DNA of 64,000 nucleotides from Paraglaciecola sp. (GCA_009993955.1 JAACSL010000023.1:1-64000); one strand, 5' to 3'; shown: positions 7,025-29,046, counted from the stretch's first letter. Numbers and translations are program-made. The notes: generated from the letters alone by a model not told the origin.

Positions 7025-8638
7025 TTAAATCACGCCATTCACAATCGGTTCAAAGGCTGTGAGACTATCAAGCAGGGCGCTGTTACCCAAACCATTTTGT
7101 GGAAATAAGGTCGCAAATTTACCTTGTTCACCATGCAGTGCTAAGTAGTTTAGGATCACGGTTTCAACTAACAAATTGACGTTGTTAGCGGCTGGCGTGG
7201 CACTGGTTTCTACGGAGGCGTCACTGCGCATGTAACCGAGTTGCTGGTGTTTGGCCTGTGCATCCAGATTCGCCCCTAATAATTGAGGGGTACCCGCCGG
7301 GTTGTAAACCAAAAAGAAACTGGCGGCGGTAGATGAATTATCACCGGTCCATACACCTTTACCACGGCCATTGAGGGAATCGTCCACCATGCCGTTGCTG
7401 GCCACCGCGCCATCGCTGCACACATAAAGCATCAGCGGTACACCTTGGCGAGCGGCGTATTCTAAACAGGCGCCCATGCAGCGACCCGCGCGTAAGTCCC
7501 GTAGTTCACCCGTTGAACGATCACCCGTGTGATAATCGAAGCCTCCCATGGTAATGGTACCCGCACCGGCAAAGCCGTTGATCACTAATTTCATCACCGA
7601 GGCGGTTTTTTGAAATTCACCGTCGTTGGCAAATTCCTCGGCCGTAAAGATCCCACTTTCGCCAACGATATTAGTGTCCAATGCGGGATCAAGAGATGAA
7701 GGATCACCAAAACGGTCAGTGATATCAGCGCTTTTTACATAACCACAATTCACCAAGTCTTTGAGCACGTCATCGGTGGTAATTTTACTGTCTACTTTGC
7801 CAAGCTTCATGGCACTGATACGTTGAATGGATTCCATTACCGCCACAGAGTCTTGCTGGCTGAGCAAACCCACTAAATCACCAGTATCCACTAAGCCTGT
7901 GACATCCGAAGGACGGTCAACCTTAGTGGGGCGTTTGCTGCTATCAATCATCATGGCAGGTGCCATAGAGTTGCCACCCGAATCAGAGTTTCGTGAACCA
8001 ATCAGGGTGAGTAAACTGCCGTCAGCACCAACTCGGTTGATGCCATACATGGGGTTGTGGGGGTTATTGCCTGTGTCATTTTCAGAGCGAGCAGGTATTA
8101 CGGCGCCATTAGCATTGGCGCGATGGCTCACAGCAAACTTATCTTGGATCCCCCGTAAAAAGGCACTATCAGCGTGGAAGGCCAATCCTAGTTCGGTATT
8201 GATGAAGTCACTCAAGCCAGTGGTGGGGTTGGCGATAGCCGGTACCATGTCGCCGGGCAAACCCAGTTTGCTATAGCCAGCGGTGCTGAGAAAGTCTAAC
8301 TGACCACCACGGCCACCCACCAATACATTCGAACCTGCAATGTTGGCACCGCCCGCTAAGTCAAACACAATGAAGGGGATTTTGCCTGCGCCTTGTGTGG
8401 CAATACCACAGCTGCTTTTTAAGGCCTCTAAGTCACTGGAAAGGGTGGCATTGGCGCGTCCTGGCGCCGCGAGTAAAGTGAATATAGACCCACTGCACAC
8501 GGTGCCAAGTCCGGCCATAAAACCTTGGGCGATAAAATCGCGTCGGCTGATAGGCTTGTGATGACAACTGTGCAATAAAGGGCTGTTAAGTCCATAAGAC
8601 CGAGTGATTTTTTTCATGTTGAAGTGTCTCCGCGTCAT
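7025..8638 (-). CDS. DUF1501-like Tat-exported protein
   Basis: 537 aa; twin-arginine motif SRRDFIAQGFMAG; FIVFDLAGGANIAGSNVLVGGRGGQ and Gly-rich alkaline-phosphatase-superfamily-like body. Confidence 0.65.
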   Translation of the reverse strand: MTRRHFNMKKITRSYGLNSPLLHSCHHKPISRRDFIAQGFMAGLGTVCSGSIFTLLAAPGRANATLSSDLEALKSSCGIATQGAGKIPFIVFDLAGGANIAGSNVLVGGRGGQLDFLSTAGYSKLGLPGDMVPAIANPTTGLSDFINTELGLAFHADSAFLRGIQDKFAVSHRANANGAVIPARSENDTGNNPHNPMYGINRVGADGSLLTLIGSRNSDSGGNSMAPAMMIDSSKRPTKVDRPSDVTGLVDTGDLVGLLSQQDSVAVMESIQRISAMKLGKVDSKITTDDVLKDLVNCGYVKSADITDRFGDPSSLDPALDTNIVGESGIFTAEEFANDGEFQKTASVMKLVINGFAGAGTITMGGFDYHTGDRSTGELRDLRAGRCMGACLEYAARQGVPLMLYVCSDGAVASNGMVDDSLNGRGKGVWTGDNSSTAASFFLVYNPAGTPQLLGANLDAQAKHQQLGYMRSDASVETSATPAANNVNLLVETVILNYLALHGEQGKFATLFPQNGLGNSALLDSLTAFEPIVNGVI

Positions 8639-8641
8639 GGC

Positions 8642-11128
8642 TTATTGCACCAACAGGGCGGCGCTGCCGAGGGTAGCCGCACACACTGCTTTGACCACCG
8701 TGCGGGTATAGTTGGCGTCGCAAATTTTCCCGCCCGAACAGTCAGTCAGGCGTGTTATCAGGTCATTTAACTCGTTATTGACGGCCGCTTGTTCTGGTTG
8801 ATCAAGCAAGTTCTGGCAGAGCATGCGCTGGCTCAGAACGTTTACTATGGCGTCGCGAGCGGTGGGTGTGAAGGCCGTGCTGGCGGCTTGATTAAAATTA
8901 AAATCAGGGAAGTAAGCGCTGCGTAAACTGCTGGATTCCACCAATTGATCACAATATTTAATCGCCATTTGAGTCACGGCCATTTGGTTAGAAGCAACAA
9001 AGCTGTCTAGGTTGGTTACTGCGGGTAACTGTTGTTTTAATTGTTCAAATGCAGCTTTAACCGCTGAATTAGTTATGGGTACAGTGGTGGCAGCAGCCAT
9101 ACTGGCATTGATTTCAGCGAAGTTACGCATGCCTATTTGCGCCTGTGGCACAAGATCGACACTGGGGGCACGAGCAGGAGGATCTGCTTCCACCACCAAG
9201 TTGCTTTGCTCGCCAAGCCGCGTAAAACTCAGAAAAAATTCATCTTGTTCTGGGCCTTTTTCAAGAGGAATAATGGTGCCCAAGCGGGATAAAGTTTGTC
9301 CTTCTCCTGCTACATAGGCACTCGCAGAAATTTGCCCTTGAAGATTTTTAAACACTTGGCCAACACTGGCTTCACGGCCATTAATGCCAATCCGCATGCC
9401 TTCAATAGGGATGCTACCAATGCTGGCATTGGCATCAAGGGAGACAAAAAATGGTTCACTGAACAGGTAGCTATAACTATCGTACAAACTCACCTCCAGC
9501 ACTACATAGGCTTGAGGGACATCGATAATGTCGCTGACGTTAAACAACAAGAAAAATTTCTGGCCGATACCCACCGCAAAATTCTGGCTGATTTGCTCAG
9601 GAGTCAGCACACGATTGTGAATCGCAACCATACGAATTGAGCCGGCCCAATAGGCTTCTCCTGACACTTCACTGCCGAGCACAAAGGCATAACTATCATT
9701 CCAAGTGCTCAAATCACCGGTCTCGATGCTGTCCACATCGCCGGTAAATTGGCCATTTACATACACTTGCCGACCGTTTATCGGGTTGTAGTTCACCACC
9801 ACATGCTGCAAACTGGCTTGTAAATCCTCATCGGCATCGGCAGTGGTCAGGGCAGGTTGGCCGTCGTTATCGGTGGTGCTGCTGCGTAAACGCATGTCGT
9901 AGGTGTACAACGTTTGCCCAAGGGTAAAGTTGCGGTTTTGTGCACCACCGGAATAGCTGATGATTCTTGCCGGTCCCTCTTGGGTGACATTGGCCGGTAC
10001 TACCCAGGCTTCGATGGCAAATTCACCAGTTGCGGTGATGAGGTCATGCAGTTTTTTGCTGCTGGCCGTGGATCCTTGTGCTTTGCCGTTGACCAGTTGA
10101 ATTCCCCACCCGTTGATCCACGAATACTGGCCATGCAAACTTAAGTTGATGGCAGGTTCGACGCCGCTGGTATCAAAAGCAGTGCTACCACTGCCAGTTT
10201 TAAATTCCCACTTGGCAATCAAATCTTTTTCAAAACGACCGCCGCCGGTGGCGAGGGTGCCGTCAAACAACGATAATGCTTTGCTCGCCACTAAGCTGTT
10301 ATCTAGTTGGGTTAACTCAATGCCATCGGCCATGGTTTGAATGGCGGCCCGCAGTTCTTCAGCCTCGCTGGCGCAATCGCTCCAGCAATTATGAAATTCA
10401 TCACGCAAACGTCCGACAAATCTTGAGTTTACTGGGTTATCTAAGTCTATGCGGGCTTTAGCTGCGGCATAGGCCTCATCGATATCACTGGACGCAAAAT
10501 ACGGCGATATTGGAATCGTGGCTGAGTTGGTGTGGCAGGTTGCGCAATAGGTGGCGAGTGGTGGATATACTGTGCTGGCAAACAAAGCACTGCTCGCAGG
10601 AAAATTTTTGTTGGCCGCGGGTTGTTTAATCGGCGGAGCTTCTAATTGGATTTTGTTGGCGGTATTTTCAACATTCGCCCAGTTACTGATCCAGGTTGTC
10701 ATGATATCGGCGCAGGCTGCCGCGCTGGCTAACCAACAATTGTGACCTCCCGCGACTTTACTGACCAAGGTAGAATCTTGGGGTGAAGCAAGGTTTACCA
10801 AGGCATTGGCTTCACTGTAGGCCAAGTTGATGTCGTCATTGCGAGCAAAAGCAGGGGATTGTTGCCCTTGAATATGACAGGCGCCACAGCGGTCTTTGCC
10901 ACTGATGTTATCCCACAGAGCTAATTTAAACTGTTGCACATCGGCTGTTGCACTTACCGGGCCAGAATATGTCACCGGGTTAGTATCCACTGGGGGAGGA
11001 GCAGGGTTTTGTAGCACCTCGCTGCTGCCACCGCCGCAGGCTGTGAGCCATAAAACACAGCTGCCAACAAGGGCTGTGCGCAGTCTGTGTTTGTTCAAGA
11101 AGTGAAGCGCAAAGGTCGACAAGTGCAT
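8642..11128 (-). CDS. LamG-domain c-type-heme lipoprotein
   Basis: 828 aa; lipobox LTACGGG; CXXCH motifs CGACH and CATCH; LamG-like WSSxx/EAWVVPANVT...GARIISYSGG...YVNGQFTGD. Confidence 0.75.
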   Translation of the reverse strand: MHLSTFALHFLNKHRLRTALVGSCVLWLTACGGGSSEVLQNPAPPPVDTNPVTYSGPVSATADVQQFKLALWDNISGKDRCGACHIQGQQSPAFARNDDINLAYSEANALVNLASPQDSTLVSKVAGGHNCWLASAAACADIMTTWISNWANVENTANKIQLEAPPIKQPAANKNFPASSALFASTVYPPLATYCATCHTNSATIPISPYFASSDIDEAYAAAKARIDLDNPVNSRFVGRLRDEFHNCWSDCASEAEELRAAIQTMADGIELTQLDNSLVASKALSLFDGTLATGGGRFEKDLIAKWEFKTGSGSTAFDTSGVEPAINLSLHGQYSWINGWGIQLVNGKAQGSTASSKKLHDLITATGEFAIEAWVVPANVTQEGPARIISYSGGAQNRNFTLGQTLYTYDMRLRSSTTDNDGQPALTTADADEDLQASLQHVVVNYNPINGRQVYVNGQFTGDVDSIETGDLSTWNDSYAFVLGSEVSGEAYWAGSIRMVAIHNRVLTPEQISQNFAVGIGQKFFLLFNVSDIIDVPQAYVVLEVSLYDSYSYLFSEPFFVSLDANASIGSIPIEGMRIGINGREASVGQVFKNLQGQISASAYVAGEGQTLSRLGTIIPLEKGPEQDEFFLSFTRLGEQSNLVVEADPPARAPSVDLVPQAQIGMRNFAEINASMAAATTVPITNSAVKAAFEQLKQQLPAVTNLDSFVASNQMAVTQMAIKYCDQLVESSSLRSAYFPDFNFNQAASTAFTPTARDAIVNVLSQRMLCQNLLDQPEQAAVNNELNDLITRLTDCSGGKICDANYTRTVVKAVCAATLGSAALLVQ

Positions 11129-11130: not shown

Positions 11131-12426
11131 CTATTCTCCTTTGCAGTAAGCGGCAGTATCAGCAAATACCTGTTTTAACTGATAACCACTTTGTTGGAAT
11201 TCTTGAGTAATGGCGGCCAATTCAGCGCGGTCTGTGGCATCTTGTGGGCTACGTAAACATACATTCTCAAATACTTTTTTCACCTGACATTCTGCAAACT
11301 GCTGGCTGCTGGCGAGTTCTTGTCCCATGGATTTTGCTCCACTTCCTTGGGCAGGGAGATTGGTGTCCCAGCCTAAGTTTTTGTTCAAACCTTCACGCCA
11401 GTAATTTGCCCAATCATCATTGTCAGTGACAAAGCCATAAGGAAAGTTATTGCTGTTGATGCGGTATTTACCTTGCACCCGGCTACCGGTTTGCGCATCC
11501 ACTTGACCAGCCGCATGATATTGGATGCTACCGCGCTCACCTTCGGGATCAGCATTAACGTCGTATTGGTAATTGTAATAAGCAAAGGCTTGTGCCAGCG
11601 GATCCATGCCAGCATGACAACCTACACAGGAGTTATTAAAAATTCGACTGTCGCCACCTGGACTGCGACTCACATCTTGGCGAATGCGGTCCGGCGCCCG
11701 ACTGGTATCTTTTAGCCCTTCTAAGTCCGTACACAAGTGATTGATCAAGGTAAAACGCAACATGGCACGATTTGTCCCATCTTTAAAATAGGCTTTGGCT
11801 GCGGCACGTGTCGTCATCACCCCTGCGGTCGCTTCACTGGGTAAACCGATTAAACTTGATTGCTTTGTTGCGTGTAAAACGCGTTTCAGATCGACGCTTT
11901 GTGCATCAAGGGCTAGGTAGTGATCATTATTGCTGTTGCTGTAATTGGGGATGCCACTGATGGGAATGCCATTGTCGGCGGTGGCAGTATAAATAAGATC
12001 AGCAAACAGGATTTCTCGAAAATCCACATCATCTCGCACGATCCCGATGACCGTTGCAGTGTAGTCATTGAGTGGCGCAAATACATCCCCTTCTTCATTT
12101 GTCCAGGGGGTGATCCAGTTTTTTAAGGTCACGTTGTAAAAGGCCGGATCATCCATGGCGATGTAGGCAGCCGCTCTCACCTCACCGCGACTCAGGGCTG
12201 CACTCATGTCATCGAGTACCGCTGCACTCGGTGGAATACCGGCAAGGCGATCGTGCATACGTTTTGCTTGTTGACGCACATCAGCCTGAACCTGAGTGAC
12301 AAACACTAAGCCGAGCATCAGGGCAATAAGGCGTGAGTGTTTGTTAGCTCTGACTCGCCGGTTGCAGCGTTGAAAGCCAATTTGTTGGGGGGCAGATTTC
12401 AAATTGGGTCTCCTCATTAAGTGCAC
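11131..12426 (-). CDS. c-type-heme protein, DUF1588/DUF1585-like
   Basis: 431 aa; NNSCVGCHAGMDPLAQAFAYYNY resembles the heme-binding motif of planctomycete-type PSCyt/DUF1588 proteins. Confidence 0.6.
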   Translation of the reverse strand: MHLMRRPNLKSAPQQIGFQRCNRRVRANKHSRLIALMLGLVFVTQVQADVRQQAKRMHDRLAGIPPSAAVLDDMSAALSRGEVRAAAYIAMDDPAFYNVTLKNWITPWTNEEGDVFAPLNDYTATVIGIVRDDVDFREILFADLIYTATADNGIPISGIPNYSNSNNDHYLALDAQSVDLKRVLHATKQSSLIGLPSEATAGVMTTRAAAKAYFKDGTNRAMLRFTLINHLCTDLEGLKDTSRAPDRIRQDVSRSPGGDSRIFNNSCVGCHAGMDPLAQAFAYYNYQYDVNADPEGERGSIQYHAAGQVDAQTGSRVQGKYRINSNNFPYGFVTDNDDWANYWREGLNKNLGWDTNLPAQGSGAKSMGQELASSQQFAECQVKKVFENVCLRSPQDATDRAELAAITQEFQQSGYQLKQVFADTAAYCKGE

Positions 12427-13102
12427 TGATTAAATGCCTGAGTAAGCCAAAGGTAAATATGTTGAACCGTTCTTGGGTCTTGGCATTTATACCTTTGCCC
12501 GGCGATTTGCACATCGCAAGCTGGGTTATTGCAAAGGAGCACGGCTTCAGCACATTTTAGGCCAAGAAGCATTATCCTGCCTTATGGCCCGCGTTTTGCC
12601 GGGTCGACACCCATTGTTTGTCAATCAAGGTGTGTTGCTTGAGGGCAAAGATGTGGCGAATTACCGACAGTCGCGAGGGTTTTAGTATTGCTTTTAGCCC
12701 AAGGTGCTAAAAATTTGCTGGCAGAATAGGGGCTACCGGCGGTGTCGTGAATTCGCAACAGTAGGTATCGGCTTGCTCAGTCACGCCTATTTTTTAACCG
12801 CCCCTCGCGTGTTTGGGTATTAAAAACTATTACCTAGAATAAGTTGTTGACTTGAGTGAGGCACACCGAACTGTCAGCATCGCTGCGCTATTAGGCAGAA
12901 TGACGAGATTGTCGCTGCAGCCCGACAGTTTAAAACCGTCATATTCGTTGCTAGGCTAAGCTAGCTAAAGGCGATGACATAAAAGTGCTTAGTTCGCCGG
13001 TACTGAGCTGAAAAGCAGGCTTTACCAACGTGCAGAAAAAGCCAAGCAGGCAAGTGATAGGGCAAGCATGCAGCAAGACATAAATGAAACAAGGTAGATA
13101 GT

Positions 13103-15808
13103 GTGATGACGCAACAGCAGACAACAAGAATGCAGCGCTTCGCCGTGATAGTCTGTGGCATCGCTTTGTGGGCTTGTGGTGGCGAACAAGTTATTCCTAA
13201 TAATCAAGAGCCGGACCCAGTTGTGGTTGATGTGCCTGTTGCCTTTATCAAACGACAGTTACCCCTAAACGAAAATGGCGAGTTAATCAGTCAAGACTTG
13301 CGCCAACCAAACGATTTTGTGCCCGGTGCCGCTCTGTTTATCAAAACCCGAGCCTCGGTGAGTGCCGTCGCAAAAAACATCACCGATCGCGCGTTTTTCA
13401 GTGAAGAGCAAGTTACCGCTGCCAGCGAAGCAAACCCTTTACCGGGTTACGATGTCAAAGACTTGGACGTATCTTATGATGGTGCCAGCCTAATTTTTGC
13501 TATGCGTGCGGCACAGATTGAAGACGCCGATGATGATGCGCAACCCACTTGGAATATTTGGCGTTATGAACTAGAAAGCGACAGCCTCAGTCGGGTGATG
13601 GCGGCCGATGCGATAGCGGAAGCAGGGCAAGACACGGCCCCTGTGTTTCTGCCCGATGGTCGCATTGTATTTAGTTCAACTCGTCAGCAAGCCAATCAAG
13701 CTATCTTGCTGGATGAAAACAAACCACAATACCAAAGTGTAGATGAGAGTCGTCGCCGCACCGCGTCGGTGTTGCATGTGATGAATGCTGATGGCAGCAA
13801 TATCCAACAAATTTCGTTTAATCAAAGTCATGATCTTGATCCAACCGTGCTAAGCACGGGCAAAATTTTATTCAGTCGCTGGGATAACGCCGGCAACAAC
13901 AGCAGCATCAACTTATATCAAATGAACGCCGATGGCAGTGAGTTAGAAATAGTTTACGGGCGTCACAGCCATCGTTCTGAGCGTTCAACGCAATTTTTAC
14001 ACTATACCCAAATGCGTGAATTGCCGGATGGACGGGTGATCAGCGCCTTACGTCCCATGCAAAATGATGATTGGGGTGGCGACTACGTTACCGTTGATAT
14101 TCAGCACTATGTCGATCGTCAAACCCCCTTTGCTAACATGGCTGGCACCAGTGCAAGTGCCGAACAAAGTGCGTTATTTGCTGACATCGTGATTGATAGT
14201 CCTGTTTCTCCCAGCGGTAAAATAGCCGCAGTGTATCCACTGTGGGATGGCAGTGGTCGGGTGTTGTACAGTTGGAATCAATGTCGAGTGTGGGATCCTG
14301 AGCCGGCTGAAGGGGAAACATCCCTCATCCTCCCCTGTAATGACAGCTTACTGGCGAATCCAGATATTCAAGCCGCGCCTCTTGCCTATGGGTTGTGGAT
14401 CTATGACCCGCGTGACAATACCCAATTGCCTATTGCCGTGCCTCAGTCAGACGTTATTTACACCGAAGTCCTTGCCCTAAAGGGACGGGCGTTTCCTGCC
14501 GATGCGCAGCAAAGTCCAGCATTTGACCCCGAGCTAGCCTTTGCTTCGTTAGCGCAAGTGCATATTCGCAGTGTTTACGATTTCGCGGGTATCGATAGTT
14601 CAGAGCAAGGTATTGCGGTCTTAGCTGACCCCAGTCAAACCCCTGCGCAAGCGCGTCCTGCGCGATTTTTGCGAATTGTTAAAGCGGTGTCACAACCTGA
14701 TGATGCTACCCGCGACTTTAAAAATTCAGCCTTTGGCCGCAGTAGCAATCAACTGATGCGTGAAATTGTTGGTTATGCCGTGGTTGAACCGGATGGCTCG
14801 GCGCTCTTTACCGTGCCAGTCAACGTGCCATTAGCTTTTAGCGTCTTAGATGCCTTTGGTCAGCGGATCAGCGAACGCCATCAAAACTGGTTGCAGTTTG
14901 CTGCGGGTGAACAACGCACCTGCAATGGCTGCCATAGCCAAATTAGTGAAGCGCCCCATGGGCGAATGGCGGCTGAGGCGGCCAGTATTAATCCGGGTGC
15001 GCCGGCAACAGGGCAGGCATTTTTGCATGCCAACCCTGCGTTGTTTGCTGACATGGGAGAAACCATGGCACAAACTGCGGGGCGAATTAATGGTGTGGCT
15101 TACCCCAGCCCCAACATTGAATTCACTGACATTTGGACGGATCCGGCGCTGCAAACTCCCTCGGCAAGTTATCGCTTAGCTTACGCGGACATGCAATCTG
15201 CGATACCGATTAGTCCCGCCTGCGCAACAACGTGGACACCCTTGTGCCGTATCGAAATTAACTACCCTGTGCACATTCAAGCCTTGTTTGATCTCGATCG
15301 TCCAGTGCTGGCCGAAGACGGCATCAGTGAACAAGCCCAACATCGCTGCACCAGTTGTCATAACAGCGAAGATGCCGCAGGACTGGCACAAGTACCGGCT
15401 GGGCAATTGGATTTACGTGGGCTTGATTCAAGTGATAATCCCGATCACCTGATAAGCTACCGAGAGTTGTTGTTTAATGACAATGAACAAACCTTAGTTG
15501 AAGGTTTGCTGGTGGATCGACTGGTGCCCGTATTGGATAGTAATGGCGATGCCGTTTTTGCCACTGACGATGAAGGTGAGCTAATCCTAGACAGCGAAGG
15601 CAATGCCATTCCCGTCACCACCACGGTGTCTATTAATCCAATTTTATCGGTTAACGGGGCACGCAGCAGCCAAGACTTTTTTGCACTTTTTCAAGACAAC
15701 GGCAGCCACGCACATTGGTTATCACCCGCTGAATTGAAGTTAATGGTTGAATGGTTGGATTTAGGGGGACAATATTACAACAACCCCTTTGTTGCGCCGG
15801 TAAATTGA
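13103..15808 (+). CDS. HzsA-like / PD40 beta-propeller c-type-heme lipoprotein
   Basis: 901 aa; lipobox LWACGG; TolB-type repeats HVMNADGSNIQQISF and LYQMNADGSEL; CNGCH and CTSCH heme motifs; GYAVVEPDGSALFTVPVNVPLAF typical of hydrazine synthase alpha-related proteins. Confidence 0.75.
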   Translation: MMTQQQTTRMQRFAVIVCGIALWACGGEQVIPNNQEPDPVVVDVPVAFIKRQLPLNENGELISQDLRQPNDFVPGAALFIKTRASVSAVAKNITDRAFFSEEQVTAASEANPLPGYDVKDLDVSYDGASLIFAMRAAQIEDADDDAQPTWNIWRYELESDSLSRVMAADAIAEAGQDTAPVFLPDGRIVFSSTRQQANQAILLDENKPQYQSVDESRRRTASVLHVMNADGSNIQQISFNQSHDLDPTVLSTGKILFSRWDNAGNNSSINLYQMNADGSELEIVYGRHSHRSERSTQFLHYTQMRELPDGRVISALRPMQNDDWGGDYVTVDIQHYVDRQTPFANMAGTSASAEQSALFADIVIDSPVSPSGKIAAVYPLWDGSGRVLYSWNQCRVWDPEPAEGETSLILPCNDSLLANPDIQAAPLAYGLWIYDPRDNTQLPIAVPQSDVIYTEVLALKGRAFPADAQQSPAFDPELAFASLAQVHIRSVYDFAGIDSSEQGIAVLADPSQTPAQARPARFLRIVKAVSQPDDATRDFKNSAFGRSSNQLMREIVGYAVVEPDGSALFTVPVNVPLAFSVLDAFGQRISERHQNWLQFAAGEQRTCNGCHSQISEAPHGRMAAEAASINPGAPATGQAFLHANPALFADMGETMAQTAGRINGVAYPSPNIEFTDIWTDPALQTPSASYRLAYADMQSAIPISPACATTWTPLCRIEINYPVHIQALFDLDRPVLAEDGISEQAQHRCTSCHNSEDAAGLAQVPAGQLDLRGLDSSDNPDHLISYRELLFNDNEQTLVEGLLVDRLVPVLDSNGDAVFATDDEGELILDSEGNAIPVTTTVSINPILSVNGARSSQDFFALFQDNGSHAHWLSPAELKLMVEWLDLGGQYYNNPFVAPVN

Positions 15809-17192: not shown

Positions 17193-17229
17193 TTGCATGT
17201 TAATGAACAGCATTCTGCGAGGACATGTT

Positions 17230-19186: not shown

Positions 19187-19789
19187 ATGAACATAAAAAC
19201 GATGACCAAGAACACGATGAGCAAGCAGACTAAAACGCGCAACATGACAGCGACATGGGTGTTACTGACCGTATTACTCAGTCAGCTTTTGTTGAGTGGT
19301 GCCCAGGCCCAGCAACTTGATGCCCCAAAAGCAGATGAGGCCGATGATAATCAACTGGCCAGCCAACTGCAGCAATTGAAAAAAGAGGTGATTGCCCTCA
19401 ATCGCGATTTATTTATTTTGGAAGAAGACTTGTTGTTTCCTTCAAGCACACAAGTCGTGGTGTTTTTGGCTGTGGACGTGGGGGATTATTTTAAACTCGA
19501 CGCCGTTGAGTTGAAAATTGATGAGCAGACGGTGAGCCATTATTTGTATACCGAAAAGCAACAGCTGGCCTTAGCAAAAGGGGGAGTACAAAAACTCCAT
19601 CTCGCCAATTTACCTCAAGGTAAACATGAACTTACCGCGTTTTTTATCGGTGTGGGCCCTCACGATCGAGAATACAAACGTGCCACCACCTTGAGCTTTG
19701 AAAAGGGCAGCGATGCAAAGATGTTAGAGCTCAGGATCACTGACACTACTGCCACCCAACAACCAGAGTTTACGGTTGTCGAGTTATAA
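19187..19789 (+). CDS. Hypothetical exported protein of TPR/Exb operon
   Basis: signal peptide-like N-terminus; QLKKEVIALNRDLFILEEDLLFP; cotranscribed with 19776-28xxx genes. Confidence 0.6.
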   Translation: MNIKTMTKNTMSKQTKTRNMTATWVLLTVLLSQLLLSGAQAQQLDAPKADEADDNQLASQLQQLKKEVIALNRDLFILEEDLLFPSSTQVVVFLAVDVGDYFKLDAVELKIDEQTVSHYLYTEKQQLALAKGGVQKLHLANLPQGKHELTAFFIGVGPHDREYKRATTLSFEKGSDAKMLELRITDTTATQQPEFTVVEL

Positions 19790-21986
19790 AATGAGGTGTC
19801 TCGCTCAGCGCTATTTGCACAAACTATGGCCAAACATACTGCGCGGTGTGGTTATGGCGTTGCTGAGCCTTGGTCTGTGCCACGCCCAACAAGCGTCTGT
19901 ATCATCAGTAAACACAGACCCTAAACAAGTGGTAGTCGAAAAATATTATCAGCAGGCACTCTACGCGTATTTTCAAGGCGATTTTGCCCAAGCCTTGTTG
20001 TACCTTGCCTTGTTAGAGCAGACTACACCCCAAGCCCTCACCTTAGTGCCCACTTATCTGCGCAACGAAGCACTCGAACCACTGTTACTCAAGGGCGCCA
20101 TCAGTTTGGCCTATGGTTTAGAGGATCAGGCCGCGGCTATTTTTCAGCAAAGTCTGCAGCAATATTCCGACTCCGAAAAACGCACATTTGCTTGGTTTTT
20201 ACTGGGCCAGACTTATTATCAGCAAGGGCGTTTTGAGCAAGCCCAACAGGCATTTTTAGCTATAACAGCAGATGACAGTCTCGTTTATCTTGATCAAACA
20301 AGTCGTGACACGCTGCTGTATTCCCAAGCCCAATTGGCCGCATATTTTGGCACTGAAGAACCGGGGGCTTGGCTTAGCAAGTTATCTGCAGACTCCATTT
20401 ATTTGCCGTATCTGCAATACAATCAGGCCTTGGTTTTGTTGCAACAGGGTAAAAGTCAGGAAGCCATTACGCAGTTGCGTCAACTGGCCGAGCCTCAGCA
20501 ATCGAGTTTTGGCGCATTGGTCGATGGTTGGCTCAGCCCTTTGTGGCAGGCCGATGAGCAACGTGATGGCGACACAACGTTGTCACAAGACGAAGAACGT
20601 CGAGGGTTGCGGGATAGAGCAAATCTCAGTCTAGGTTATGTGCTTCTGCAACAAAATCAAGCACCAGAAGCCTACCGAGTATTTGCCAAGGTGCGTCGCG
20701 CCGGACTCGACGGTGATGCTGCCTTACTCGGTTATGGCTGGGCGGCGGCAAAAAATGATGAATTACAAACCGCGTTGGGCATTTGGCAGGCATTGATGCA
20801 GTTGCCCTATGATTCAAGTTTTAGCCTCGAAGCGTATTTAGCGTCGGCCTATGCCTACGAACAAGCCTTTGCCCCTAAACAAGCCGTGCAGGTGCTTGAT
20901 CAAGGTGTGAAACGTTTTAATTCGGCCTTGCAGCAAATACAGCTTGCCAAACAGCAGGTGCAAAAACCTGCATTTATCGTTGCTTTGGCCAATCACATTG
21001 ACGCCCAACGTATGGACGTCCCACCTACTGACGCCCAACGTAGTGAGGTGCAACCACCTGGCTCAGCTAAAACAGGGTTTACTCAGTATGCTGCGCAGCC
21101 AGCAACAACCATACTCAGTCGTGTGGTAGATGCTGTGGTATTAAGCAATGACTTTCGTCAAAAGTTAGATGCAGTAAAACAAAGTGTGCGGATTCAACAA
21201 CAACTTGAGGAATGGCAACAACGCTTAGTCAGTTACCACGTGATGCTGGATGAACGTCAAGCAGCACGCCAAGCAGAGGCAAAAAACATGTTGCAAGACC
21301 GTATTTTTGATCGATTGCCCGCCCTGCAAGCAAAGCGTGATGAACTGAAGCAACAACTTGAAGACAGCAGGTCGCAAAACAGCAGTGTCAGCTTAATGTC
21401 CCCTGAATTTCAGGCGTGGCAACAACGACTAACAGGTGCCAAGCTAACACTGCAAAGAATTCAAAGCCGTCGACAAGCCCTGAACCAAGCACCACTTGAT
21501 GAAGCGTATCAACAACGCTTAGCGCGTATCGAAGGTGTATTAAGTTGGCAAGCGAGTGAGGCTTATCCAGTGAAATACTGGCAAACTCAGCGCCTGCTTA
21601 ACGACGTGGATGACGCCTTATATGAGGCATCAGCGCAACAACAAGATTTACTGAGCGTGATTAATCAGCGCCCGGATTATAGCGCGCAGCGCAACCGAAT
21701 AGAGGGGTTGCAACAGCGAATTGCGCAACAGCAAACCACCACCACCAGTATCCAAAACACCTTGCGTGCTGAACTAACCAAAGCCTTGCACAGCGCTTTG
21801 CAGGAGCAACAAGCTGCGATTGAGGATTATCGAATTCAGGCGCAATTAGCCATGGTGCGTTTACAAGATCAAGCTTTGCAGCAAAATCAACATTCTACCT
21901 TACCTGCTGTGCCCTCAGCTGACATTGGTCGTCCGCCGATGCTGGGATCAGGTCAAAACGAAGTGCAAAGGCAAGACCAACGATGA
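19776..21986 (+). CDS. TPR/coiled-coil exported protein
   Basis: 736 aa; TPR-like N-terminus; long Q-rich coiled-coil C-terminus. Confidence 0.7.
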   Translation: MSSYKMRCLAQRYLHKLWPNILRGVVMALLSLGLCHAQQASVSSVNTDPKQVVVEKYYQQALYAYFQGDFAQALLYLALLEQTTPQALTLVPTYLRNEALEPLLLKGAISLAYGLEDQAAAIFQQSLQQYSDSEKRTFAWFLLGQTYYQQGRFEQAQQAFLAITADDSLVYLDQTSRDTLLYSQAQLAAYFGTEEPGAWLSKLSADSIYLPYLQYNQALVLLQQGKSQEAITQLRQLAEPQQSSFGALVDGWLSPLWQADEQRDGDTTLSQDEERRGLRDRANLSLGYVLLQQNQAPEAYRVFAKVRRAGLDGDAALLGYGWAAAKNDELQTALGIWQALMQLPYDSSFSLEAYLASAYAYEQAFAPKQAVQVLDQGVKRFNSALQQIQLAKQQVQKPAFIVALANHIDAQRMDVPPTDAQRSEVQPPGSAKTGFTQYAAQPATTILSRVVDAVVLSNDFRQKLDAVKQSVRIQQQLEEWQQRLVSYHVMLDERQAARQAEAKNMLQDRIFDRLPALQAKRDELKQQLEDSRSQNSSVSLMSPEFQAWQQRLTGAKLTLQRIQSRRQALNQAPLDEAYQQRLARIEGVLSWQASEAYPVKYWQTQRLLNDVDDALYEASAQQQDLLSVINQRPDYSAQRNRIEGLQQRIAQQQTTTTSIQNTLRAELTKALHSALQEQQAAIEDYRIQAQLAMVRLQDQALQQNQHSTLPAVPSADIGRPPMLGSGQNEVQRQDQR
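21000..21060 (+). repeat. 30-bp imperfect direct repeat inside TPR gene
   Basis: ACGCCCAACGTATGGACGTCCCACCTACTG / ACGCCCAACGTAGTGAGGTGCAACCACCTG. Confidence 0.8.
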
Positions 21987-24900
21987 TGCTAAGAATGAAT
22001 AAACATCTGGTTTTGCTCAGTCTGTTGCTTACCACAGGCTGCTCGTTGTATGACACACCAGAGCCAACACCTAGGCAAGTTGGCATAAGTGCAGAGACCT
22101 TGGGGGATCAGTACTTCCCGCCCCAAGCCTTAGATAACCAGATTTTGGCCAAACCAGCACTAGAAGATTTGCGCCAAGCTTATGCTGATTTGTTGCCCTT
22201 GGTGACTAATGTCGAGATCCGCAAAGCCGTGCAGTTACGCCTAGCCGATCTCAGTGCAGTGTTGGCTGAACAACAATTAGAAAGCGGTATTGTAGCGCCA
22301 CAACAAGGTGTGTTAAGTTCGGCGATAGCACAATATCAAAATCTGCTAAATCAAGCGCTGCCGCCCAGTAATCATATGGAGATTCTGTATCAGCTGGCCA
22401 AAGCCTACGATCAACAAGGTCAGCCAGAAAAAAGTAAAGCCACCCTGGAAGCCTTGTTAACTCAGTACCCGCAAAATCCCTATCTGTCAGAAGCCAATTT
22501 CCGTTTAGGGGAAGAAGCGTTTAGTCGCGGTAATTATCCAGCGGCTATTAAAGCCTACACTACGGTAGTCGATGAAGGTGCACAAAGTGCCTATTTTCCC
22601 ACATCAGCGTATATGCTGGGCTGGAGCTATTTTAAATTGTCACGTTATGCCGACGCCCTGCGTGCTTTCACGTTATTGTTAGACAATAGCCTACCCAACG
22701 ACATTATTGCCCAGCCCTTTTTTACGCAGGTGGATAGCCAGGCGCAAATCGATGCCCTTGGCGTTGGCGACAAACGCTTGGTGAACGATACCTTGCGAGT
22801 CATGAGTTTGATTTTTTCATACCGTGAGGGGCAATACGAGCAGGCTGCAGATAGTTTAATGGCGCATTTTGCCGAGGTTGGCCCCCGCCATTATGAATAT
22901 GTGTTGTACAACCAACTGGCGCAACTTTATCTCAACCAAAGGCGGTTTCGTGAAGGGGCGCAAGTTTATCAACGCTTTGCCCAAACTCATGAGCAGCATT
23001 TTCAAGCCGCGATCTTTGCGGTTAAAGAAATCGACGCCTACATCTTGGGTAAATTCCCCAGTCTGGTACTGCCAGCTAAACAGCAATTTGTTGAACGCTA
23101 CGGCATGCAAGGTGATTTGTGGGGGCAGTGGGGGATTGTGCAACAAGAGTTAGTTGGGCCATTTTTAAATCAATATTTACAAGAACTTGCCCAATTCGAA
23201 CATAGCCGAGCTCAACTGCTGAGCAATAAAGCCACAGCGCAAGTTGATGGGGGACAAACCAAGCAGCAAAGTGAAGCGGTGCAGTTAAGGTTTAAGCCAG
23301 ATGAGCCTGCCTTGACATCAACAGAATTGCAACAACAGGCTAGGCTTGCCTATTTGCAAGCTGCCAAGTGGTACCGTGAATTTTTAGCCACCTTTAGTGA
23401 TGACTCACTCGCCCCGCAAACCTTGTATAACATGGCTGAGGCTTTATTTTCAGCCGGTCAATATGCACAGGCCATCACCGCTTTTGAAGACTATGCCTAT
23501 GGTCAAGACCAGCATCAAGCCCTGAGCCCTGTGCCAAAACACTCATCCTCTTTGCCGCCACCCACACCACCGGTACCCAAGGCAGAGGCAGGCTACGCGG
23601 CCATTTTGGTGTACCGAGATATTCAAATACACGGCGAACCCAACGCGGCCCTCAGCCAAGAGCAGTGGCTAGATTTGCAAATTGTCAGTCAATTACGTTT
23701 TGTGCAACATTTTCCTGAGGATGACCGTGCCTTGGACGTGTTATATGTCAGTATGCAGCAACTGTTTGATTTAGAACGTTATTTGCCAGCGATTGACCTT
23801 GCCCAGCAGGTACAAAGTTGGCAACCCGCGATAGATGCCAAACAACGTTTGGCGAGCCAGTTAGTGATTGCCCATAGTCAATTTGCATTGGCCGATTATG
23901 CTGGCGCTGAAAGCAGCTATCAGCAAGCCTTACTGTTACTTACGGCCAATGATCCAAGACATGCCGACCTCAGTGAGAGCCTAGCGGCGAGCATCTATAA
24001 ACAAGCAGAATTGAACGTTGAACAGCATTATTTGCCCTTAGCTGTGAATGATTTTTTGCGTGTCATCGCCAGTGCCCCAGACAGTGCAATTCGTATTAAC
24101 GCCCAATATGATGCCGCTACCTATCTACTTGAGATGCAAGAATGGCAGCAGGCCATAGAATTGCTTGAAGACTTTCGCCAGCGTTTTCCTCAGCATCCTT
24201 TGCAAGGTGAGCTGGCTGAAAAACTGATCGTCGCCTATCAGCAAAATCAAAATTGGCAGCAAGCAGCAGATGAGCTATTTAGCTTGTGGCAAAGTCAGCC
24301 AAGCAGCACGCAAGGCCAACAAGCGCTGTATGTGGCGGCTCAGTATTATTACAAAATTGGCCAAACCCAACAGGCGCTGGAAGCATTCCGGCACTACGCT
24401 CATGCCTATCCCCAGCCTTTAGCAGAGGCGAACGAAGCACGTTTTGTGCTCAGTGAAATTTATTTGCAGCGCAAGCAAGGTGAGAATCGCCGTTTTTGGT
24501 TGAAGAAAATCATCGCCGCAGACCAACAAGCGGCAGCGGATGTTAATATTGGGCGCAGCGATCGTTCGCGTTTTTTAGCCGCCATGAGTAGCTTGGTGTT
24601 GGCGCAAGATAAGGTGGCCGAATTCAAACAGATTCAATTAACCCTGCCTTTAAAAACCAGTCTCGCTAACAAGAAGCAGGCCTTGAATGACAGCATGGCT
24701 GCCTTACAACGCACTTTGGATTATCAGGTGGTCGATTTTAGTACGGCCGCCCATTACTACATGGCGGATTTGTATGCGCAGTTGGCCAAGGATTTGTTGG
24801 CCTCCAGTAAACCGAAAAATTTAAATGCCCTAGAGTTAGAACAATACGACTTATTGCTTGAGGAGCAGGCATTTCCCTTTGAGGAACAAGCCATTACTCT

Positions 24901-25042
24901 GCATGAATCTAATGTCCAGCGAGCATGGCGCGGTGTCTATGACGATTGGGTGAAGTTGAGTTTCGCGGCCTTACAACAATTATTACCCGCCCGCTATAAC
25001 AAACAAGAACGATTATTGGAGACTCACCTTGAACTGCGTTAA
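21983..25042 (+). CDS. TPR-repeat lipoprotein (BamD/tol-pal YbgF-like repeats)
   Basis: 1019 aa; lipobox LTTGCSLYD; many TPRs such as AKAYDQQGQPEKSKATLEALLTQYPQNPYLSEANFRLGEEAF. Confidence 0.8.
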   Translation: MMLRMNKHLVLLSLLLTTGCSLYDTPEPTPRQVGISAETLGDQYFPPQALDNQILAKPALEDLRQAYADLLPLVTNVEIRKAVQLRLADLSAVLAEQQLESGIVAPQQGVLSSAIAQYQNLLNQALPPSNHMEILYQLAKAYDQQGQPEKSKATLEALLTQYPQNPYLSEANFRLGEEAFSRGNYPAAIKAYTTVVDEGAQSAYFPTSAYMLGWSYFKLSRYADALRAFTLLLDNSLPNDIIAQPFFTQVDSQAQIDALGVGDKRLVNDTLRVMSLIFSYREGQYEQAADSLMAHFAEVGPRHYEYVLYNQLAQLYLNQRRFREGAQVYQRFAQTHEQHFQAAIFAVKEIDAYILGKFPSLVLPAKQQFVERYGMQGDLWGQWGIVQQELVGPFLNQYLQELAQFEHSRAQLLSNKATAQVDGGQTKQQSEAVQLRFKPDEPALTSTELQQQARLAYLQAAKWYREFLATFSDDSLAPQTLYNMAEALFSAGQYAQAITAFEDYAYGQDQHQALSPVPKHSSSLPPPTPPVPKAEAGYAAILVYRDIQIHGEPNAALSQEQWLDLQIVSQLRFVQHFPEDDRALDVLYVSMQQLFDLERYLPAIDLAQQVQSWQPAIDAKQRLASQLVIAHSQFALADYAGAESSYQQALLLLTANDPRHADLSESLAASIYKQAELNVEQHYLPLAVNDFLRVIASAPDSAIRINAQYDAATYLLEMQEWQQAIELLEDFRQRFPQHPLQGELAEKLIVAYQQNQNWQQAADELFSLWQSQPSSTQGQQALYVAAQYYYKIGQTQQALEAFRHYAHAYPQPLAEANEARFVLSEIYLQRKQGENRRFWLKKIIAADQQAAADVNIGRSDRSRFLAAMSSLVLAQDKVAEFKQIQLTLPLKTSLANKKQALNDSMAALQRTLDYQVVDFSTAAHYYMADLYAQLAKDLLASSKPKNLNALELEQYDLLLEEQAFPFEEQAITLHESNVQRAWRGVYDDWVKLSFAALQQLLPARYNKQERLLETHLELR

Positions 25043-25814
25043 GGCGATGCCAAACAGCAAAGCACTCCTGCTGGTATGGATCAGTGTGGCCACCAGTAGC
25101 TGTAGTTTATTGCCCACAGAGGCAGATTCTGTGGCAACTGAACAGGTCGGCAAAAATAAGGTTGAGCTCAACCAAAGTACCTCTGCGCCAGTCGACCCAC
25201 TGACCCAGCAAGTCTTGGTCTTGCAAGCTCAGCCAAATCGCTATTTACAAAATCCCGCCATGCAAACGCTGAGTGACAATGATGCAACGCGCTACCAACA
25301 GGCCATCGCCTTGCAAAAACAGGGTGATAACACTAAAGCCAAAACGATCTTGCTGGCACTTAGCCAAAGCTATCCACAGTTGTCGGGACTTTGGTTGCAG
25401 CTTGCCCAGCTTGTGGGGCCGGGTGAAGACAGCCAACAACAGCGTTATTTACTGAATGCCGTCGAGGCAAACCCAAACAATTATTTTGCCCATAATCGTT
25501 TGGCTTGGTATTGGCGTCAGCATGGTGAATTTAGCCAAGCACTCAAACACTATGAACTGGCCTTGACAGCTTATCCGGCTTTCGCTGAAACTCACTTAAA
25601 TAAAGCGATACTCAACGATCTCTATCTCGGTAATAAACAAGCGGCATTGCAAGGTTATCTGTTATACCAAGCCTTAGTTAGCCAAACAGGTGAACCTGCA
25701 GATAAACAAGTGGCGGGGTGGATTATTGATTTACAACGTCAATTACAAGCCCAGCAAGCTGAATTTAATCGTGTGTCCGGTTCGATCAAGGAGGCAAACA
25801 ATGAATCTAATTAA
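25029..25814 (+). CDS. TPR lipoprotein
   Basis: SSCSLLP lipobox; TPR AHNRLAWYWRQHGEFSQALKHYELALTAYP. Confidence 0.75.
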   Translation: MNCVKAMPNSKALLLVWISVATSSCSLLPTEADSVATEQVGKNKVELNQSTSAPVDPLTQQVLVLQAQPNRYLQNPAMQTLSDNDATRYQQAIALQKQGDNTKAKTILLALSQSYPQLSGLWLQLAQLVGPGEDSQQQRYLLNAVEANPNNYFAHNRLAWYWRQHGEFSQALKHYELALTAYPAFAETHLNKAILNDLYLGNKQAALQGYLLYQALVSQTGEPADKQVAGWIIDLQRQLQAQQAEFNRVSGSIKEANNESN

Positions 25815-26121
25815 GCTTCTGCCGTGGCTATTAAGCATAAGTAGTCTGGGCACCTTGGTGTTGGCTGAGGCTTTGGCTCAGGAAACCCCGGTGGTGATAA
25901 AACTGCAAGACACCATCCGTGGCGATCAGGAGCAACCCAAAGTCTTGAGTATCGTGCCATGGCAAACACCCAGTGTAAAACCACCCTTGCCCAGTCCGAT
26001 TCTTGAGCGGATCAACCTAAAGTTTGCGCCACTCGAACGTGCTGAATTTAGTCGAGAATTACAACAGCTAATTGAAAAAAAACCGGATGACAGTTATACG
26101 CAGCAAAGCGTAGTGCCGTGA
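25801..26121 (+). CDS. Small exported protein of Exb operon
   Basis: ORF track start 25690 shortened to MNLIKLLPWLLSISSLGTLVLAEALA (signal peptide). Confidence 0.6.
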   Translation: MNLIKLLPWLLSISSLGTLVLAEALAQETPVVIKLQDTIRGDQEQPKVLSIVPWQTPSVKPPLPSPILERINLKFAPLERAEFSRELQQLIEKKPDDSYTQQSVVP

Positions 26122-26197: not shown

Positions 26198-26863
26198 ATG
26201 TTAGATGTGATAGTGCGATTTTTTCAAGAAGGTGGAGCGTTTATGTTTCCCATTGCCATCGTGCTGGCCTTGGGGGTCGCTATTGCCATTGAGCGCTATA
26301 TTTTTCTGAGTTTAGCCAAACGAGAAAACAAAAACTCGTTTGCGCAAATCGAACCCTTATTAAACAAAAGTAATTATGCCGGCGTGGTCAACTTTGCCAG
26401 TGCCGACAAGGCACCCATTAGTCGCATGATTGGTGCAGGTATCGCCCGTTTAAACCAAAGCCAGCGCCGTGAAGACATTGAATATGCGATGGAAGAAGGT
26501 TTGATGGAAACGACCCCACGCCTAGAAAAACGCACGGCATATTTAGCTACCTTGGCCAATATTTCCACCCTGTTGGGTCTGTTGGGGACCATCATTGGTT
26601 TAATTGCTGCGTTCTCGGCAGTGGCCAGCGCCGATCCCTCAGAGAAGGCAAGTTTATTATCACAAAGTATTTCGGTGGCTATGAACACTACGGCCTTTGG
26701 CCTAATTGCCGCTATTCCTTTGTTGGCTTTTCATGCCGTCTTGCAAACCAAGACCACTGAAATCATCGACAGCATGGAAATGGCTGGGGTGAAATGTTTG
26801 AATTTGTTGATTGCTCGTCAGGATCTAACCACACATTCACGTGCCAGTGATCCACACGCCTAG
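26198..26863 (+). CDS. MotA/TolQ/ExbB proton channel family protein
   Basis: 221 aa; LATLANISTLLGLLGTIIGLIAAFSAVA. Confidence 0.93.
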   Translation: MLDVIVRFFQEGGAFMFPIAIVLALGVAIAIERYIFLSLAKRENKNSFAQIEPLLNKSNYAGVVNFASADKAPISRMIGAGIARLNQSQRREDIEYAMEEGLMETTPRLEKRTAYLATLANISTLLGLLGTIIGLIAAFSAVASADPSEKASLLSQSISVAMNTTAFGLIAAIPLLAFHAVLQTKTTEIIDSMEMAGVKCLNLLIARQDLTTHSRASDPHA

Positions 26864-26890: not shown

Positions 26891-27457
26891 ATGGCCAGAG
26901 CTAGCCTGGGACGCAAAAAACTGAAAAAAAGTGATGCTGAGTTAGACATTACCTCCTTCATGAATCTGATGATCGTGTTGGTACCCGTGTTGTTGATGAT
27001 GATGGTGTTTTCACGCATTACGGTCTTGGATCTGAGCTTGCCAGAACTGGGTGAGGCCAGTTCACAGCCTGTTGACGTCAAAGATCAGCGCCTCGAGTTA
27101 GTGGTCAGAGCCGAGAATATTGCCGTGTATTATCCTCAGGGGTATTTGGTAAAAGACATTCCATTGGCCGCAAGGAGCTATGATTACAAGGCGCTGCAAA
27201 CCATTCTTATTCAGATCAAACAGACCCTCTTACAGCAAAATATTGAAAAACGTGCGGCTACGCTGTTGCTCGAAGAAAACATTCCCTATCAAGTGATTGT
27301 GGCCTTGATGGATACCACACGCTCGTATCAAGATGTATTGATAGCAAGCGTGGTAGACGCTGAATTGTTCCCAGAAATATCCCTCGGCGATGCGCCCAGC
27401 GTGGATGCGCCCAGCGTGGATGCGCCCAGCGTGTTGACGCCCACAGGCAATAATTAG
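26891..27457 (+). CDS. ExbD/TolR family biopolymer transporter (first copy)
   Basis: LDITSFMNLMIVLVPVLLMMMVF; ExbD fold; C-terminal DAPSV repeats. Confidence 0.88.
   Translation: MARASLGRKKLKKSDAELDITSFMNLMIVLVPVLLMMMVFSRITVLDLSLPELGEASSQPVDVKDQRLELVVRAENIAVYYPQGYLVKDIPLAARSYDYKALQTILIQIKQTLLQQNIEKRAATLLLEENIPYQVIVALMDTTRSYQDVLIASVVDAELFPEISLGDAPSVDAPSVDAPSVLTPTGNN
27389..27433 (+). repeat. 3 x 15-bp tandem repeat GATGCGCCCAGCGTG encoding (DAPSV)3
   Basis: Exact triplicate in the 3' end of the first exbD-like gene. Confidence 0.97.
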
Positions 27458-27466: not shown

Positions 27467-28015
27467 ATGAAAAAATCCGCCAGAGCCATGCGCATGGAAC
27501 GTCATCATAAACGCATGTCTAAAGATTCAAAACTGAGCCTTGTATCACTGATGGATATTTTTACCATCTTGGTGTTTTTCTTGATGTTGAATGCTTCCGA
27601 TGTGCAGGTTTTGCAAAACAGTAAAAGCGTTATTTTACCTCAATCGACGGCCAAACAAGCAGCACGAGAAACCCTGCTGTTGGTGGTGAATAACCACGAT
27701 TTAATACTTCAGGGGCGTAAGTTAGCCGATGTGGCAGAATTGCTCGCCAAACCCGATGAAATCATCGCTGAACTTGCCACGGAATTGGCTTATCAACTGG
27801 GTAGATCGAAACAAACGACCCAAGATCTCAATAACAACGCTGACAAAGACGCTGAGATTGGCCGCGCCATTACCATCATGGGAGACAAAAGCATTCCCTA
27901 TGCCTTGCTAAAACGCATTATGCAAACCTGTGCACAAGCAGGGTTTACTGATATTTCCCTTGCTGTGGAGAGCCTCGACGTCGATAGCACAACAACGGCG
28001 GATAATCAGCCATGA
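27467..28015 (+). CDS. ExbD/TolR family biopolymer transporter (second copy)
   Basis: LSLVSLMDIFTILVFFLMLNASD; ILQGRKL...ITIMGDKSIPYALLKRIMQTCAQAGFTDISLAVE. Confidence 0.9.
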   Translation: MKKSARAMRMERHHKRMSKDSKLSLVSLMDIFTILVFFLMLNASDVQVLQNSKSVILPQSTAKQAARETLLLVVNNHDLILQGRKLADVAELLAKPDEIIAELATELAYQLGRSKQTTQDLNNNADKDAEIGRAITIMGDKSIPYALLKRIMQTCAQAGFTDISLAVESLDVDSTTTADNQP

Positions 28016-29046
28016 GTAGTACCATTGAAGCAGCCATGCTGAGTTCTTTGCGTCAAACTCAGCCGGTTCCTGTCTTTGTATCACAATTGCCGTGGTCGTC
28101 GAGCGCGATAGAAAATCGTCGTTTTGGTCAAATTACCTTGGTGGTCTTGGTCTTAACCCTGTTGTTAGCTGCGTTGGTTAAATGGCAAGAACTACCTGAA
28201 CGTCCGCGTGCCGAAAAAGAAAAAGTGCCGCCGCAACTAACACGAATTGTTAAACCTGTGAAAGTGGAACCACCTAAACCCCTTGAACCACCCAAACCAG
28301 TCGTAATACCCGAGCCAGAGGTGAAAAAGCCAGAGCCAGAACGTAAACCACCCCCGCCAGTAAACACACCTGAGGTGACTAAAAAAACGCCTGAGCCAGT
28401 TAAAGTCAAAGTCCCCAGCCAAGCAGAACTGACTGAACTTGCTAAACAAAAAGCGCAACAAAGTGGTTTATTGGCGCTGCAAGATGAGTTGGCCAGCATG
28501 CGTGACAACCTATCGGTGAATAATCTTGCTGCCACAGACAGCATTAAAGGCGCCGGTAGCAGTGACGAAACCCAACGTAAATTTATTGGCAAAACCGTGT
28601 CCAACGCGAGCGGCGGGGTTGATACCAGTCGGTTGAGCACCAACACTGGCTCAAAAGGCGAATTGGCCGAGCGTAAAAATACCGAATACGTGGCACCCAT
28701 TGAGGGCATTGCCTCACTGGCGGCACAACAAGTGAATGAAGAAGAGAGTGTGGTGGGCAATCGCAGCACCGAATCTATTCGTCGTGTTCTCGATACTAAC
28801 AAGGGCGGCATTTACGCCATTTATCGCCGTGCCCTTCGCAACGATGCCAGTTTACAAGGCAAGCTCACCGTCAACTTACAAATTGAAGCCGACGGCACGG
28901 TCTCAGCGATTAAAGTGATCAGCAGCGAACTCAATTCTGCTGAACTAGAGCAAGACCTGATAAACCGGATTAAGTTGATTAATTTCGGTAAACAAGCCGT
29001 CAGCCAAACCCTGTTAGATTATTCATTTAACTTTTTGCCGTTTTAA
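28012..29046 (+). CDS. AgmX/PglI C-terminal domain, TonB-like protein
   Basis: Pro-rich PPKPLEPPKPVVIPEPEVKKPEPERKPPPP spacer; RSTESIRRVLDTNKGGIYAIYRRALRNDASLQGKLTVNLQIEADGTVSAIKV. Confidence 0.85.
   Translation: MSSTIEAAMLSSLRQTQPVPVFVSQLPWSSSAIENRRFGQITLVVLVLTLLLAALVKWQELPERPRAEKEKVPPQLTRIVKPVKVEPPKPLEPPKPVVIPEPEVKKPEPERKPPPPVNTPEVTKKTPEPVKVKVPSQAELTELAKQKAQQSGLLALQDELASMRDNLSVNNLAATDSIKGAGSSDETQRKFIGKTVSNASGGVDTSRLSTNTGSKGELAERKNTEYVAPIEGIASLAAQQVNEEESVVGNRSTESIRRVLDTNKGGIYAIYRRALRNDASLQGKLTVNLQIEADGTVSAIKVISSELNSAELEQDLINRIKLINFGKQAVSQTLLDYSFNFLPF

Follow-up and report, generated by a model that had tools for sequence, protein, structure and literature searches.

What do the Agl-Glt-type motors of Gammaproteobacteria work on? 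The core complex is known from this class (Luciano 2011, PMC3169522; Wartel 2013, PMC3858216), and Agl motors move surface complexes by means of the proton-motive force (PMC3858216); specialisation was proposed to follow the cargo, and in both papers the function in Gammaproteobacteria was left open. The question is raised anew by a locus of Paraglaciecola sp. (GCA_009993955.1; source genome of 4.16 Mb in 82 contigs), which occupies positions 7025-29046 of a window of 64,000 nucleotides, i.e., the whole stretch of DNA that was analysed. A previous interpretation, made by a model without knowledge of the origin (here called the sequence-only reading), had joined c-heme protein genes and a Tol/Exb-type motor of this region in one supercluster. 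Eighteen genes were found there, all intact; every gene which it had named was present, and its coordinates were right. They form two modules of nine genes each. In the redox module the genes for the DUF1501-like, LamG/c-heme and DUF1585/1588-like proteins diverge from those for the HzsA-like, SH3-barrel, barrel, TlpA, DUF4266 and DUF3570 proteins; the motor module consists of an exported protein (exp213), three TPR proteins, a small exported protein, ExbB, two ExbD and AgmX. Domains were assigned by Pfam and NCBIfam scans, as follows:

7025..8638, minus strand: Tat-exported 537-aa protein, the "DUF1501-like" protein of the sequence-only reading; Tat motif SRRDFI; without Pfam match
8642..11128, minus strand: probable lipoprotein with LamG lectin-like domain (PF13385, E = 3.5e-20) and two CxxCH; lipobox LTAC
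11131..12426, minus strand: mono-heme protein with DUF1588/DUF1585-like (PSCyt3/PSD2) C-terminal part; weak PSD2/PSCyt3; one CxxCH
12427..13102, no strand: divergent intergenic region between the redox-module halves; short blocks conserved in congeners
13103..15808, plus strand: HzsA-like PD40 propeller protein with two CxxCH; HZS_alpha (PF18582, E = 6e-14); PD40
15751..16587, plus strand: SH3 domain and small outer-membrane barrel; PF08239 (SH3_3), 5.8e-11; TIGR04565 weak; C-terminal ..FF
16557..17192, plus strand: outer-membrane beta-barrel, TIGR04565 family (OMP_myx_plus), E = 1.4e-48; C-terminal ..FF
17122..17754, plus strand: TlpA/ResA-type thiol-disulfide protein; PF00578, 1.2e-24; PF08534, 3.9e-24
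17758..18009, plus strand: DUF4266 small protein (PF14086, 5.8e-23); C-terminus GGGCGCN (CxC)
17966..19135, plus strand: DUF3570 protein (PF12094, 4.2e-41), probable outer-membrane barrel with SGAS flavinylation motif; C-terminal ..FY
19148..19789, plus strand: exp213, exported, proposed client adaptor of the motor; without family match; tracks the heme module
19776..21986, plus strand: TPR protein, 736 aa; TPR_16 and others
21983..25042, plus strand: TPR protein, 1019 aa; TPR_16, 3.5e-17; YbgF-like, 3e-24, slightly under cut-off
25029..25814, plus strand: TPR protein, 261 aa, weakly GltE-like; NF033758 (GltE), 1.1e-5, far under cut-off
25798..26121, plus strand: small exported protein, 107 aa; without family match; kept within the motor module
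26198..26863, plus strand: ExbB/TolQ/AglR-type proton channel; PF01618, 1.5e-29
26891..27457, plus strand: ExbD/TolR-type protein 1, Asn replacing the axle Asp; PF02472, 2e-10
27467..28015, plus strand: ExbD/TolR-type protein 2, axle Asp invariant; PF02472, 1.8e-16
28012..29046, plus strand: TonB-like force transducer with AgmX/PglI (GltG/GltJ-type) C-terminal domain; NF033768, E = 1.1e-17, over cut-off

The divergent intergenic region has a counterpart of 607-704 bp in most congeners; none of the Rfam elements matched it. Conserved blocks near 12475 and 12817 were seen in congeners, one of them with an AGGT..ACCT-like inverted pattern.

By its domains and gene content, the motor is probably a gammaproteobacterial Agl-Glt core complex, and the likeness to Agl-Glt noticed in the sequence-only reading was borne out. 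As in Agl-Glt and Agl-Nfs, according to the available parts of the descriptions (PMC3169522, PMC3858216), an AglR-like ExbB channel, two ExbD-like proteins, a TonB-like protein with an AgmX/PglI domain (NF033768, 63.9 bits versus a cut-off of 40) and TPR proteins stand in one cluster. The full GltG and GltJ models stayed under cut-off; the GltE model (NF033758) gave 24.6 bits versus a cut-off of 225 with the 261-aa TPR protein, and the GltD and GltC models matched none of the three TPR proteins. All equivalog scores for TolQ/ExbB, TolR/ExbD and TolA/TonB were under cut-off, as was TonB_C, and a plain TonB or Tol system was ruled out on these scores. There are also differences from the described systems: the core complex is tied here to a nine-gene redox module, which those parts of the two papers do not mention, and none of the myxobacterial Group A genes was among the genes identified. 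The axle position of the ExbD pair (26891-28015) is Asn or Ser in ExbD1 and Asp in ExbD2 in all aligned orthologs, from heme and non-heme motors, whereas AglQ and AglS of Myxococcus were both described with a conserved Asp (PMC9389320). The gammaproteobacterial core complex was stated, in the same available parts of PMC3169522 and PMC3858216, to have an extra conserved gene which is said to be absent from Myxococcales; this gene is possibly exp213. A cluster of Fibrobacter, FSU_2397-2403, is similar by gene description (two TPR proteins, ExbB, two ExbD and TonB in close order) and differs in being more abundant on cellulose and in that no heme module is mentioned in the accessible part of the report (PMC6851124).

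The proteins of the redox module have relatives in several known systems, and they deviate from each of them. Among the aligned proteins, the Tat-exported 537-aa protein showed the highest conservation (mean column identity 83%). For its label "DUF1501-like" Pfam gave no support, a match being missing in seven orthologs, although a Tat motif is present; PDB contained no meaningful relatives. In the LamG protein the CxxCH motifs at residues 81 and 195 were kept in all orthologs. The DUF1588/DUF1585-like protein, in which CxxCH at residue 267 is conserved, showed weak PSD2 in 8 of 8 orthologs and PSCyt3 in 7 of 8; both of its domains were under the Pfam cut-off (DUF1585, E = 2.6e-5, 24.3 bits versus a gathering score of 25.8; DUF1588, E = 0.059, 14.1 bits versus 27). 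The combination of DUF1588/DUF1585, LamG and c-heme is reminiscent of planctomycete-type PSCyt/PSD proteins with CBM/LamG, whose function is unknown and for which a carbohydrate link was proposed (PMC5615132); here, in contrast, the domains are below cut-off, the protein is short with a single heme, and the genes occur in Gammaproteobacteria and are tied to a motor.

For the HzsA-like protein, with conserved CxxCH at residues 607 and 749, the only relative in PDB was the alpha subunit of hydrazine synthase (5c2v/5c2w), with which it aligned at the propeller, the HZS_alpha middle domain and the C-terminus; both proteins have two c-heme sites. The label of an HzsA-like PD40 c-heme protein stood as to HZS_alpha, PD40 and both CxxCH, but not as to the active-site residues of hydrazine synthase: at the aligned positions (5c2v numbering, inferred by offset) there was no Tyr at the ligand of heme alpha-I, and the zinc-ligand Cys was replaced by an invariant His. 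In hydrazine synthase these are named as Tyr591 and Cys303, the latter not being universal in anammox bacteria (PMC12758564). The HzsA equivalog NF052339 reached 43.7 bits versus a cut-off of 800, and genes for beta and gamma subunits were absent from the cluster at 7025-29046. Hydrazine synthase identity was ruled out by the score and the active-site residues. The heme proteins are assumed to be exposed on the outer surface.

The remaining part of the module resembles a flavinylation system. In Chlorobium, ApbE flavinylates the DUF3570 protein at [S/T]GA[S/T], and a thioredoxin-like protein and DUF4266 are found together with DUF3570 (PMC8238504). Here, too, a DUF3570 protein with SGAS (residue 82; motif in 12 of 13 orthologs, a second [S/T]GA[S/T] being absent), DUF4266 with a C-terminal CxC conserved among orthologs, and a thioredoxin-like protein are adjacent. 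In contrast to that system, the cluster is without ApbE and DsbD, its thioredoxin-like protein is of the TlpA type and not PF13899, and the genes are joined to heme genes and a motor. Four ApbE genes were found elsewhere in the source genome; in two cases another DUF4266 gene lies at a distance of about 2 kb or less. The sequence-only reading had assigned TlpA to thiol or cytochrome maturation. The protein is indeed TlpA-like, but since its neighbours are DUF4266 and DUF3570, a substrate of flavinylation, a redox relay appears likelier than cytochrome maturation alone. Outer-membrane-barrel-like C-termini are present in three proteins of the module (SH3-barrel, barrel and DUF3570). Single-sequence structure prediction of the DUF3570 protein was too poor to be used (pLDDT 31).

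The arrangement of the block is not due to chance, because it is preserved among relatives. Twelve further genomes, from three genera, show the 18 genes in unchanged order and orientation: ten congeners plus G023 and G024, which represent two other genera of the family (tblastn versus the loci of relatives; the short SH3-barrel and DUF4266 genes were missed by tblastn in some relatives and recovered by profile). The order of the nine-gene redox module was kept across many families in most of a second set of 20 loci, with exceptions in G356 (trio inverted), G350 (TlpA gene adjoining exp213) and G345 (trio not seen). The position of the motor relative to the redox module varied in this set: downstream, on the opposite side, in inverted orientation or at another place in the genome. 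Two further arrangements were noted. In locus L148 (G046; 5-20 kb) SH3-barrel, barrel, TlpA and DUF3570-like genes come after the motor, and an HzsA-like gene is missing, perhaps an intermediate or a variant; and in two heme-type motors that lie apart from the redox module, a TlpA-like gene lies directly upstream of exp213 (L164 of G082, about 13.8 kb; L165 of G196, about 5.3 kb).

Occurrence of the two modules was compared in sets of genomes from the same genus, order, class and phylum, which overlap in a few genomes. HzsA-like genes were searched by profile (at least 130 bits in the class sample) and AgmX by protein query and then by profile (more than 100 bits in the order sample), in the same sets. 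An HzsA-like gene was present in 12 of 22 genomes of the genus, 20 of 198 of the order, 38 of 274 of the class and 7 of 279 of the phylum. Within the genus, the Paraglaciecola source genome counted in, the 12 genomes also had AgmX, and the other 10 had neither gene. AgmX was found in all 20 HzsA-like genomes of the order versus 10 of the 178 others (p = 2e-20), in 37 of 38 of the class versus 23 of 236 others (p = 9e-29; both by Fisher tests, which ignore kinship, and with the AgmX of one of the 37, G286, being a short fragment only), and in 7 of 7 of the phylum. In the sole exception, G253, AgmX was not found in the genome, the HzsA-like gene is truncated and the genes from SH3-barrel to DUF3570 are missing. 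The DUF1501-like gene was present in 19 of the 20 HzsA-like genomes of the order and in no other of the 198. HzsA-like and AgmX genes were less than about 25 kb apart in 12 of these 20, and five genomes have them on separate contigs. In G037, G082 and G196 the modules are separated by more than 1 Mb of a single contig, and the co-occurrence holds there. As a negative control, genomes with DUF4266 and without HzsA-like showed no association with AgmX (3/29 vs 7/149, p = 0.21). A family-level association test covered about 162 families, a number estimated from family codes; a test of independent pairs comprised six pairs only, with a median p of 0.06.

The motor without the redox module was common, accounting for 10 of the 30 motor genomes of the order sample. 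Thus, heme handling cannot be the general function of the motor, and its occurrence alone in many genomes implies a more general machine; a neighbour common to non-heme motors was looked for and none was found. The sequence-only reading had turned to synteny for the question if heme genes and motor always travel together, and had named their independent occurrence in most relatives as an argument against a joint machine. The answer is one-directional: heme genes occur nearly never without the motor, even where unlinked, but the motor often occurs without heme genes. Comparative genomics makes it highly probable that heme genes and Agl-Glt-type motor are functionally coupled, and, as judged from these distributions, the redox module has relied on the motor in the course of evolution, while the reverse is not so.

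Which part of the motor follows the heme module could be narrowed down. When the heme label is mapped on a tree built from five motor proteins, about 9 changes are needed, and well supported branches force at least 7 of these; a single inherited motor-heme linkage is therefore not supported. With bit scores relative to profiles which were built from heme-type congeners only, exp213 separated heme from non-heme motors (AUC 0.935, p = 3e-6), its neighbour of 736 aa (TPR736) did so weakly (AUC 0.76), and the other motor parts (ExbB, ExbD, AgmX, large TPR protein etc.) showed no separation (AUC 0.49-0.65). Low exp213 scores among the heme-type sequences include some which were cut at locus ends (G043, G040, G182, G061), and that of G036 is shortened. 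The exp213 tree needs 3 changes of the heme label. The ratio of exp213 to motor end branches was 0.94 with the heme module and 1.74 without it (p = 9e-6), suggesting slower evolution of exp213, relative to the motor, together with heme genes; this tree has 186 columns with rough branch lengths, and all these comparisons of exp213, one of nine genes, were made post hoc. No family match was obtained for exp213 (Pfam, NCBIfam), and a structure prediction from a two-row alignment, which showed a helix followed by a strand-rich C-terminal part, was too poor to be used (mean pLDDT 48). Since only exp213, and weakly its TPR neighbour, track the heme module, the data point to exp213 as a candidate client adaptor of the motor. 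The exp213 of Bs31 scores heme-like; from this score, Bs31 is predicted to carry the redox module.

We propose that the block represents one envelope-spanning system of two modules, namely a proton-channel motor with transducer and TPR proteins, and a nine-gene redox module of the outer envelope. The redox proteins would assemble at the outer membrane, and electrons or reducing equivalents would pass among TlpA, DUF4266, the FMN of DUF3570 and the heme proteins. Proton flow through ExbB/ExbD would drive the AgmX transducer and the TPR proteins; exp213 and its TPR neighbour would couple this work to the redox complex, which may be moved, clustered or loaded at the surface, as happens with the cargo of Agl-Glt and Nfs in Myxococcus. 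That the two-module system, the redox assembly and relay, and motor work coupled through exp213 all hold jointly has, in our estimation, about an even chance. Proton-driven work of AgmX and TPR proteins, coupled by exp213 and its TPR neighbour to the redox complex, may well occur, at slightly less than an even chance. More tentative is the reading that the motor acts mechanically on a complex for electron transfer in the outer envelope, composed of heme proteins and a flavinylated barrel, and so would link the proton gradient of the inner membrane to surface redox chemistry via exp213. The substrate of the redox system might be an extracellular polymer, because of the LamG domain and because the TPR-ExbB-ExbD-ExbD-TonB cluster of Fibrobacter was higher on cellulose, as given in the available part of PMC6851124; this is the weakest step of the proposal and a doubtful one. 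Most likely, the redox module is a client complex on which a general Agl-Glt-type machine acts through exp213.

Other explanations must be weighed against a client relationship. Inhabitants of surfaces or insoluble polymers might simply keep both modules as an ecological island, with the redox module working alone. This would agree with the motor being alone in many genomes, where it has no common neighbour, and with modules more than 1 Mb apart; we regard it as unlikely, since the dependence runs one way only and is nearly absolute, no association with the motor is seen in DUF4266 genomes that lack HzsA-like, and exp213 follows the heme module while ExbB, ExbD, AgmX and the large TPR protein do not. 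The motor could also power the display of the heme lipoproteins at the surface, or their loading with cofactor, and then take no part in their work. Several proteins of the redox module are predicted lipoproteins or barrels and need delivery to the outer envelope, and a TlpA-like gene adjoins exp213 in three genomes (G350, G082, G196). However, a secretion-type component (secretin, ATPase) is absent from the cluster, and surface heme lipoproteins elsewhere are not known to need such a motor; an assembly or export function thus appears improbable to a similar degree.

Import of a product or a metal through the barrels, energised by the motor, with the redox module preparing the substrate, e.g., by metal reduction, would be in keeping with the ExbB/ExbD/TonB-like architecture and with the iron transporter VIT1 found in 25 DUF3570-type clusters elsewhere (PMC8238504). 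Against this, a TonB-dependent receptor is absent from the cluster, the domain over cut-off is AgmX/PglI and not TonB_C, and the barrels are small, so that uptake of this type is very unlikely.

Because it was found almost only in motor-carrying genomes across Gammaproteobacteria, the nine-gene set is so far the strongest candidate for the object of the motor's work in this class; the near-absolute, one-directional co-occurrence names a concrete candidate cargo as well as a candidate adaptor, exp213. If the redox module is the client of the motor, this would provide the first functional setting for DUF3570/DUF4266 flavin relays and for HzsA-like cytochromes outside anammox, and a motor of the Agl-Glt class would be tied to redox chemistry and not to motility or polysaccharide transport.

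Some features outside the block were noted in the 64-kb window. Upstream, at 6368-6933, are two short overlapping plus-strand ORFs, the first PKD-like, possibly a broken gene. Downstream, an RND efflux gene is present as two minus-strand ORFs of 287 and 578 aa (29180-31850) and is probably interrupted; a gene for a membrane-fusion protein adjoins (31850-32878), and RNase P RNA of class A is encoded at 33072-33459 on the plus strand. At 48946-53960 the genes for a CHAT-domain protein of 1100 aa and for a protein containing an animal haem peroxidase domain lie close together, and genes for large proteins without Pfam domains adjoin.
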